In this document: positions 26,601-29,600 of the stretch, piece after piece
How the letters are laid out: each line of letters opens with the position of its first letter
Position numbering within the stretch: position 1 is the stretch's first letter
NCBI RefSeq assembly: GCF_002222655.1
Contig: NZ_CP022423.1
Coordinates: forward strand, 62,001 to 126,000
DNA: 64,000 bases
Source of the DNA: Vitreoscilla filiformis
Lineage (GTDB): Bacteria; Pseudomonadota; Gammaproteobacteria; Burkholderiales; Burkholderiaceae_C
Reading direction: 5' to 3'
The notes under the pieces: model-generated
What the model was told of the DNA's origin: nothing
The model's input: only the letters and a program-made list of their open reading frames with translations
The model's database searches: none
Translations under genes and position numbers: made by a program

Positions 26601-29600
26601 TATCTCGTTGAGGCGAGCGGGTTCCCCCTCTCCCCAACCCCTCTCCCACGAGGGGAGAGGGGCTTCGAGCGACGCGAAGGTTTGAGCGCAGGAGAACCCG
26701 GTTTTGCTCCCTCTCCCCTCGTGGGAGAGGGCTGGGGAGAGGGGGCCGCCGCCGCCACACCCACCTCCCCCGACACCATCCGCATCGTCAACGCCCGCGA
26801 GCACAACCTCAAATCGCTGAGCGTCGAAATCCCACGCGGCAAGTTCAGTGTCATCACCGGCGTATCGGGCTCCGGCAAATCCACGCTGGCGTTCGACATC
26901 CTCTTCAACGAAGGCCAGCGCCGCTACCTGGAAAGCCTCAACGCCTACGCCCGCAGCATCGTGCAGCCGGCGGGGCGGCCGGAGGTGGACGCGGTGTGGG
27001 GCATTCCGCCCACCGTCGCCATCGAGCAGCGCCTGAGCCGGGGCGGGCGCAAAAGCACCGTGGCCACCACCACCGAGCTGTGGCACTTCCTGCGCCTGCT
27101 GTGGGTGAAGCTGGGCACCCAGCATTGCATCCATGACGGCACGCCGGTGAAAGCGCAAAGCGCCGAGAGCATCCTGGCGCAACTGCTGCGCGAGCCGGCG
27201 CAGGGAGGCTTCCGGGGTCAGCATGTCTGCTTGCTGGCGCCGTTGGTGCAAAACCGCAAAGGCCTTTACAACGACTTGGCGAAGTGGGCCAGCGCCAAGG
27301 GTTACGACCATTTGCGCGTGGACGGTGAATTCGTACCGACGAGCCCCTGGGCCAAGCTGGATCGTTTCAAGGAACACACGCTGGAACTCCCGGTGGGAGA
27401 CGTGCTGGTGAACCCCGCCAACGAAACCGAACTGCGCGCCCTGCTCACCGAAGCGCTGGACGCCGGCAAAGGCGTGCTGCACCTGCTGGCGCCTGTGGAT
27501 CACCTCGCCGAAGCACTGGAAACCGGCGCCACCACCCGTGGCTTGGGCCGCGTGACGGTGTTTTCCACCCAGCGCGCCTGCCCCGTGTGCGCCACCAGTT
27601 ATGCCGAACTCGACCCGCGCATGTTCAGCTACAACAGCAAACATGGCTGGTGCCCGTCGTGCGTCGGCACCGGGCTGGCGCTGACGCGTGAACAACGCAA
27701 AGCGCTGGACGACTCCCCACCCGACGACAAGGCGCGTGAGAAAGGCCGCGAACAAAGCTTCGCCGCCGAAGAGCCGGAACTCGACGACCTGAGCGGCCAG
27801 CCCTGCCCGGATTGCCAAGGCGCCCGACTCAACCCGTCCGCCCGCGCCGTGTACTTCGCCGGGCGAGGCATCCACGACGTGGCCCGAGGTTCGGTGCAGG
27901 ACACCCGGGGCTGGTTGGAAGGTTTGGTGCGAGAGCAAGCGGGTTCCCCCTCTCCCCAACCCCTCTCCCACGAGGGGAGAGGGGCTTCGAGTGACGCGCA
28001 AGCCTCAGCGTCGGAAAACCCGGCTTTACTCCCTCTCCCCTCGCGGGAGAGGGCTGGGGAGAGGGGGACGCCCGCACCTACGGCGACCCCCTTCACCATG
28101 ACCGAACGCGAAGCCGGCATCGCCCGCGATGTGTTGGTGGAAATCCGCAGCCGCTTGTCTTTCCTCGACGAAGTGGGCTTGGGCTATCTGACGCTGGATC
28201 GGGCGGCGCCGACACTTTCCGGCGGCGAGGCGCAGCGCATCCGCCTGGCGGCGCAATTGGGCAGCCATTTGCAGGGCGTGTGTTACGTGCTGGATGAACC
28301 CACCATCGGCCTGCACCCGCGTGACAACGGCATCTTGCTGGGCGCGCTGGAAAAACTCGGCGCCAGCGGCAACACCCTGGTGGTGGTGGAGCACGACGAA
28401 GACACCATCCGCCGCGCCGATCATGTGATCGACATCGGCCCCGGCGCGGGTCGGCGCGGCGGGCAGTTGGTGGCGCAGGGCACGCCGGCGGAGATTGCGG
28501 CCAACCCCGAATCGCTCACGGGGAAATGCTTGGCTGAACCGCTGAAACACCCGCTGCACCCGCGCCGAGCCGTCTCCGCCGCCGAGCCGACGCTGCGCCT
28601 GCGCGGCGCCCATCTGCACAACTTGCAGGACGTGGCAGTGGATGTGCCGCTCGCCCGGCTGGTGGCGGTGACGGGCGTCTCCGGCTCCGGCAAATCCACG
28701 CTGGCGCGGGATGTCTTGCTGAAAAACGTGGCCGCGTTGGTGGCCGCCAAGGCCCGCGCCCCGCTGGGCGCCAGCGGCGAGGCGCTGGAGATCACCACCG
28801 CGCCGGTGACGCTCGCCGGCTGTCGGGCGCTCACGGGTTGGGGGCCGGTGGATCGGGTGCTGGAGGTGGATCAAACGCCCATCGGCAAAACGCCGCGCTC
28901 TTGCCCAGCGACTTACATCGGCTTTTGGGATGCGATCCGCAAGCTCTTTGCCCAGACGTTGGAGGCCAAGGCGCGTGGTTACGCCGCCGGGCGTTTCTCC
29001 TTCAACACCGGGCCGGGGCGCTGCCCGGCGTGTGAAGGCCAGGGCGTTCGCACCATCGAAATGAGCTTTTTGCCGGATGTGAAGGTGCCGTGTGAGGTCT
29101 GCCACGGCCAGCGCTTCAACGCTGAAACTCTGGCGGTGACGTGGCGCGGCAAAAGCATCGGCGACGTGCTGAACATGGCGGTGGACGAGGCGGTGGAGTT
29201 CTTCGCCTCCATGCCCGCCATCGCTCACCCGCTGCAACTGTTGCAGGACGTGGGCCTGGGTTACCTCACTCTGGGCCAGCCGAGCCCGACGCTCTCAGGC
29301 GGCGAAGCCCAGCGCATCAAGCTGGTGACGGAGCTGTCCAAGGTGCGCGACGAAGTGGGCAAGCGCGGCCAGAAAGCCCCGCACACGCTTTACGTGCTGG
29401 ACGAACCGACGGTCGGCCTGCACATGGCGGACGTGGCGCGGCTCATCCACGTGCTGCACCGGCTGGTGGACGGCGGGCACAGCGTGGTGGTGATCGAGCA
29501 CGATCTGGACGTGATCGCCGAAGCCGATTGGGTCATTGATCTGGGGCCGGAGGGCGGGACGAATGGGGGGCGGGTGGCGTGTGTGGGCACGCCGGAGGCG

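Follow-up and report, generated by a model that had tools for sequence, protein, structure and literature searches.

Two near-identical palindromic copies of one short element interrupt a UvrA-type gene in a 64,000-nt stretch of the Vitreoscilla filiformis genome (NZ_CP022423.1, positions 62,001–126,000, forward strand; hereafter the window), and the question raised by this locus is what the element is and how proteins come to accommodate it. Both copies were found where the original prediction had placed them, in one open frame and at linker or loop positions (Table 1). Each folds as a long imperfect palindrome (DNA fold z = −9.4 and −6.7, a level that none of 200 shuffles reached for either copy), and they are 90% identical over 138 aligned nt, copy 2 being the best other genomic match of copy 1 (91%). 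The length first proposed, 130 bp, stands in part: 122 bp are common to other genomic copies, whereas the first 8 bp (AGCGGGTT) recur, among the 41 dimers listed, in the two uvrA copies only. That the copies are translated in different frames proved correct, the first hairpin falling in codon phase 2 in copy 1 and in phase 1 in copy 2, so that direct recombination between them would delete 1322 bp and break the frame. The window holds four exact hairpins only, all of them in these two copies, and an Rfam search of the window gave no match.

Table 1. Positions in the window of the UvrA2 gene, its two insert-bearing segments and the parts of the element.
Feature	Position	Strand	Basis or remark
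Tandem (double-length) UvrA-type paralogue (UvrA2), 2006 aa, with both elements	23637..29657	+	ORF list
Site-1 linker, aa 980–1043	26574..26765	+	AlphaFold2 model residues 1–64, predicted disordered, pLDDT <50
AGCGGGTT, 8 bp outside the general element	26616..26623	+	Of 41 dimers listed, shared by the two in uvrA alone
Element copy 1, 122-bp core: outer strand, hairpin, 47-nt spacer, hairpin, outer strand	26624..26745	.	
Left hairpin of copy 1, CCCTCTCCC-ACGAG-GGGAGAGGG	26639..26661	.	
Right hairpin of copy 1	26709..26731	.	
Element copy 2, 122-bp core, same layout as copy 1	27946..28067	.	
Site-2 loop between two helices, aa 1438–1483	27948..28085	+	AlphaFold2 model residues 459–504, predicted disordered, pLDDT <50
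Left hairpin of copy 2	27961..27983	.	
Right hairpin of copy 2	28031..28053	.	

The identification of the host as uvrA needed refinement. The gene is UvrA-type, with NCBIfam UvrA models matching at 1902 and 1880 bits over several stretches and Pfam UvrA_inter matching too, but it is a tandem paralogue, and a separate UvrA-matching open frame of ordinary length (968 aa) lies elsewhere in the genome (G000:C1:959911, G000 being V. filiformis) and is probably the ordinary uvrA of this species. UvrA matches were obtained in 60 of 60 genomes searched, V. filiformis counted, for some of them in other UvrA genes only. The nearest named UvrA2 loci include Rubrivivax (74–75%), and the relatives place the host in Burkholderiales.

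We compared 29 UvrA2 loci of relatives and found that 25 of the 26 covering site 1 lack a comparable insert (L033 and L035, with longer unrelated linkers there, are counted among the 25), as do all 25 covering site 2, while in the locus L034 from genome G019 the site-1 linker holds a version of the element peculiar to that locus. The net gain in length over relatives is approximately 40 aa at site 1 and 50–56 aa at site 2, the linkers not being alignable base for base. In the AlphaFold2 model, which covers aa 980–2006 with a mean pLDDT of 77.1, both segments are predicted to be disordered, the low pLDDT being partly due to an alignment that holds no homologue of the inserts. Both inserts are also present in a near relative, P0010, whose open frame of 2002 aa is 97.7% identical outside the site-1 region; its site 2 shows no difference, and at site 1 the spacer and flank have changed in length without loss of frame. 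Orthologues thus do not hold unrelated sequence of the same length at these sites, nor is the element confined to this gene.

Comparison with known repeats assigns the element to the BoxC/PIT/TM group. The hairpin CCCTCTCCC..GGGAGAGGG is accompanied by an adjoining third strand of the GGG[AT]GAGGG type, and an alignment of copy 1 to the TM pair at 164547 of E. coli K-12 has 39 identical columns out of 44, the others being 2 mismatches and 3 gap columns. Judged by sequence, each element consists of two BoxC/PIT/TM intrastrand-triplex motifs in inverted orientation. The TM motif, earlier called BoxC and PIT, is reported in PMC4666352 from more than 260 genomes, and the same source describes formation of an intrastrand triplex in vitro by the E. 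coli motif; for V. filiformis only hairpin folding was computed.

A search of the 3.79-Mb genome for further copies, as the original prediction invited, returned 122 exact hairpins, a good number of which lie in frame within other genes, compared with 0 for the pattern read backwards. The 43 stretches that we examined contain 113 of these 122, and with two substitutions allowed the count there rises to 126 hairpins, grouped into 63 clusters on contigs C1 and C2, these clusters being most, not all, of the genome's copies. The exact hairpin was absent from 15 of 15 congeners searched, and its spread is patchy, with at least one hairpin in 58 of 199 genomes (V. filiformis counted) in a survey by a fixed pattern that misses stem variants outside it. 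Outer third strands are present in 41 of the 44 two-hairpin clusters, hairpin-to-hairpin gaps range from 11 to 120 nt, and there are subgroups with a common spacer and flank. A second pattern, built on the outer strand, matched at three places and was too strict. Two tandem arrays, of 186 bp × 5.2 at L100 3066–4048 and of 215 bp × 3.1 at L071 3085–3741, have units that contain the element, like REP clusters.

To place the copies relative to genes, we scored the 200 bp flanking each cluster on either side with a codon model derived from 33 ORFs of the window, and a cluster was called genic when both flanks had the same coding frame and an open frame of at least 150 aa ran through the element. 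By this two-flank test 25 of 63 clusters were genic; two N-terminal ones, which precede the domain matched in FdhD and CbiD, were dropped, leaving 23 clusters in frame inside proteins encoded by 18 ORFs, in all three phases (12/8/3). Some of the 23 match only with substitutions, the second AceF hairpin being an example. Several clusters occur in UvrA2 (2), HrpA (2), AceF (2) and a PaaH-type dehydrogenase (3), and single clusters in PolA, MutL, RecC, SMC, Cas3f, urease alpha (UreC), Lpd, biotin carboxylase, a second PaaH-type dehydrogenase, HypF, TlyA, a two-domain ABC ATPase, a SagB-like and a NuoF-like protein. Six of the 18 host proteins act on DNA (UvrA2, PolA, MutL, RecC, SMC and Cas3f). 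The three in-frame insertions in the PaaH-type dehydrogenase (L076 2634–4730) are separate ones, and its relative P0008 has the same three.

In 15 of the 18 host ORFs, located family matches flank the insert on both sides; for the two PaaH-type ORFs a second family stretch was reported with its place not given, and for the NuoF-like ORF the match was on one side only. Some inserts lie between domains, as in PolA (5'-3' and 3'-5' exonuclease), MutL (N and C parts) and the lipoyl-domain linkers of AceF and Lpd; others lie inside a Pfam domain (UreC, the SMC hinge, TlyA and one HrpA) or seem to interrupt one (HypF, biotin carboxylase and one PaaH). Protein-database searches with the PolA insert region gave PolA proteins only (six of 170 candidates, two of them empty), those with the MutL region three of three candidates (MutL, a PaaH-type dehydrogenase and a histidine kinase, P0009, which is a further host), and those with the UvrA region one of 126 candidates; a wide spread of the exact insert peptides was not seen in these three sets of searches. 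In a second genome, G019, only 3 of 18 scorable clusters were genic (from 20 of 45 hairpins listed). The in-frame copies of V. filiformis support the proposal of a mobile palindromic element that genes tolerate in several frames.

The element itself holds few stop codons. Taken with 16 nt on each side, 57 of the 126 hairpins have all six frames open, a state reached by 11.5% of mononucleotide shuffles, and four to six frames were open in 39 of the 44 two-hairpin units. The three phases give three different Pro/Gly-rich peptides, and the encoded peptides are rich in Pro, Ser, Gly, Glu and Arg (PSPQPSP..RGEG, PSPQPLSHEGRG and LSPTPLPRGERG). Among two-hairpin copies, the hairpin-to-hairpin length is a multiple of three in 12 of the 15 that are genic and in 14 of the 29 that are not (Fisher p 0.057), which only suggests that genic copies favor such lengths.

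Evidence on mobility comes from similarity between loci and from filled and empty sites. In the different loci L063, L066, L076 and L088, similarity extends beyond the dimer, over 144–164 bp at 81–92% in the three best-covered pairs. Among PolA homologues, the site is filled in P0001, P0003, P0002 and P0004 (98.0%, 98.2%, 96.8% and 90.1% identical to V. filiformis elsewhere, respectively) and empty in P0005 and P0006 (96.7% and 97.9%), a set of six, the 90%-identical P0004 being among the filled, that does not distinguish gain from loss. Terminal inverted repeats of the kind that define MITEs are present. A target-site duplication, looked for in defining the insertion, was not seen: for direct repeats of 2–9 bp at offsets of 0–3 in 41 elements, no setting reached three elements and 2.5 times the mismatched-pair expectation.

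The sequence around the copies has a marked asymmetry. In the 41 two-hairpin copies, the 20 bp to the left are G/T-rich and the 20 bp to the right A/C-rich (mean score 0.715, against 0.500 at random window positions with an s.d. of the mean of 0.013), and 41 of 41 dimers exceed the random mean. The score was 0.704 for the 17 genic-flagged clusters, the two N-terminal ones counted, and 0.723 for the 24 others. These flanks are found in genes of either orientation and outside genes, for example at window positions 26604–26623 and 26746–26765; scores in other genomes come from one and two dimers, too small a sample to use. An extended stem was considered and rejected as a source of the pattern, flank complementarity in V. 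filiformis pairs not exceeding that in shuffled pairs (permutation p 0.33–0.68). A pre-existing G/T|A/C composition of the target found no support, as orthologous empty sites scored near random (UvrA2 site 1, 0.505, n = 66; UvrA2 site 2, 0.548, n = 65; UreC, 0.511, n = 25; SMC, 0.509, n = 28; the element-bearing or otherwise filled L034, L115, L117, L124, L133, L197, L211 and L238 being left out), in linkers that align poorly and for which V. filiformis ancestors could have differed.

Elements of this kind also occupy the same loops in other genera. Such hairpins, with up to two substitutions, occur in 9 of 109 other UvrA2 loci, pooled from two collections, so that some genomes may be represented more than once. 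The hairpin is exact in five of these nine loci: L034, L115 (Variovorax guangxiensis), L154 (Polaromonas sp. CG9_12), L157 (a Burkholderiales MAG whose UvrA2 has four sites) and L179. The remaining four, L117, L124 (V. paradoxus), L133 and L182, match at two substitutions only, for which shuffled loci give 2 hits in 453 kb. Mapped on the Rubrivivax albus UvrA2 (L105), inserts fall at position ~498 in six loci, three of them Variovorax, at ~1011–1031 in V. filiformis, L034 and L157, at ~1382 in two loci and at ~1563–1575 in three. Beyond UvrA2, a clear module lies in the SMC of L238 (G049), at the hinge loop that is filled in V. filiformis, and the urease alpha loop filled in V. filiformis holds, in L197 (G020), a TM-like variant of the hairpin that the search pattern does not cover. 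The congener L211 (G011), which is without the element, has an unrelated insertion (..VRAETVEA..GQAEPVEA..) in that UreC loop, reminiscent of another common bacterial repeat. The occupations of the same loops in different genera appear to be independent, and some sites, such as those within Variovorax, may share ancestry.

We consider it highly probable that the element is a mobile, non-autonomous inverted dimer of the BoxC/PIT/TM type that has multiplied in a Burkholderiales lineage and persists in genes at open-frame loops and linkers. Points against this reading are the small genic share in G019, the inserts that lie in or interrupt a Pfam domain, the four UvrA2 loci that match at two substitutions only, the PolA set, which does not separate gain from loss, and the searches for Y1_Tnp and for target duplication, which tied neither to the element. 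The GC-rich inverted dimer would multiply and insert at many places, and copies landing in genes would persist where they fall in loops or inter-domain linkers with the frame kept open. Genes may tolerate the element because its arms hold few stops in either strand and disordered loops accept it; most phases and both orientations would then be translatable, yielding the Pro/Ser/Gly/Glu/Arg-rich peptides. Movement could be brought about by a trans-acting enzyme or a replication-linked copying event. The insert-bearing proteins would be full length and working. A wider reading is possible and is put forward tentatively: that a widespread triplex-forming repeat is a coding-compatible mobile element, that lineages in which it amplifies repeatedly gain it at the same loops (the UvrA paralogue linkers, the urease-alpha loop and the SMC hinge loop), and that it moves without RAYT or target duplication, leaving a switch from a G/T-rich to an A/C-rich strand around each copy.

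Other origins were weighed against the favored one. Mobilization as a REPIN/RAYT system, in which REP pairs are moved by a tyrosine (Y1/HUH) transposase, would account for inverted palindrome dimers with a variable spacer, clusters and tandem arrays, which resemble the REP dimers and clusters described in PMC3733652; we nevertheless regard it as unlikely. At the hairpin feet the REP tags GTAG/CTAC and CGTC/GACG were found in 0 and 1 of 252 cases, respectively. In a transposase search limited to Y1_Tnp across 199 genomes, matches were not associated with the hairpins (25 of 35 genomes with at least five hairpins, 112 of 164 others, p 0.84), and ten genomes with at least five hairpins had no Y1_Tnp match. 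The best Y1_Tnp-like ORF of V. filiformis scored 20.9 bits, below the Pfam cut-off of 23, its HUH motif presumably lost, and its 3.2-kb locus contains no element. RAYT mobilization was therefore set aside as unsupported. This ORF (L031, G000:C1:292600–292842, 263 aa) lies between genes resembling aroB and gltB by eye, and a Y1_Tnp match was present in 11 of 15 congeners.

That the element is not mobile at all, its hairpins having arisen on the spot, through template switching at stalled replication forks or local quasi-palindrome growth in a genome prone to such events, is less likely still. Flanks that are asymmetric in every dimer, beside orthologous empty sites that are not so at four places, indicate that the surrounding sequence may have changed with the insert, and TM sites are described in PMC4666352 as instability hot spots in E. 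coli. Against this, the similarity of the subgroup of unrelated loci, flank included, would require copying between loci, and the same motif occurs in distant lineages. Less probable again is a functional decoration, in which selection for regulation or solubility would favor the peptides or hairpins in proteins of DNA repair and other kinds. Genes of DNA transactions do recur among the hosts, and PMC3733652 reports that other REP families hit uvrA, DNA polymerase I and recBCD in other species; this gene set was, however, drawn up post hoc and many of its members are long multi-domain proteins, the three phases encode different peptides, spacer and flank lengths vary between close relatives, and other hosts are metabolic enzymes. 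The least probable reading takes the inserts as marks of decaying or untranslated genes, for which it counts that the UvrA host is a paralogue alongside another UvrA ORF. Frames are nonetheless open through the inserts, PolA, MutL, PaaH and UvrA2 are 95–98% identical to close relatives that also carry them, and P0010 retains both UvrA inserts in an intact reading frame.

A mobile BoxC/PIT/TM dimer would extend in-gene palindromic insertion, best known from Rickettsia, to this repeat group and to a Burkholderiales genome with 15 empty congeners. Filled and empty PolA at 97–98% identity, together with elements in the same loops across genera, make its movement and its absorption by proteins testable, as well as whether DNA-repair genes are favored targets. 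The element also accounts for where Pro/Gly-rich stretches like PSPQPSP..RGEG in these proteins come from.

Rickettsia palindromic elements (RPEs) are palindromic sequences of ~100–150 bp that lie in frame inside unrelated proteins, and the V. filiformis element does likewise, in several phases. The likeness originally drawn therefore holds for behavior; sequence puts the element in the BoxC/PIT/TM group, the host group is another one, and the comparison with RPEs was made by traits. Intragenic RPE-1, RPE-4 and RPE-6 are mentioned in PMC3733652, which counts RPE-4 and RPE-6 as CGTC REPs, whereas the V. filiformis element lacks the CGTC tag. For other species, the same source describes GTAG/CGTC REPs, also as dimers, within uvrA (two per gene) and within the genes for DNA polymerase I and RecBCD, and its REPs share with our element the arrangement in dimers and tandem clusters; they differ in the unpaired GTAG or CGTC tag, which is missing at the V. 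filiformis hairpin feet, and the main text of that paper uses none of the words triplex, BoxC and PIT. The Cod-2 repeat (PMC2267715) is among the closest systems by description.

The BoxC/PIT/TM group shares with the V. filiformis element the same hairpin and third strand and the arrangement in inverted pairs. According to PMC4666352, copies in E. coli MG1655 are always intergenic, whereas 23 of 63 V. filiformis clusters lie inside proteins, an intergenic position being a property reported for one species and not a structural criterion of the group. The V. filiformis third strand is mostly GGGGAGAGGG, without the TGA of the BoxC/PIT/TM strand GGGGTGAGGG, and points outward in 41 of 44 two-hairpin clusters, compared with inward in the one K-12 pair examined. 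No paper on in-gene BoxC/PIT/TM elements was among the matches listed, in a coverage mostly outside subscription journals and preprints. In-gene palindromic insertion thus has precedent, and what is new within the literature covered, as far as our searches reach, is the group to which the element belongs, the scale of insertion in one genome with empty congeners, and the occupation of the same loops in several genera.
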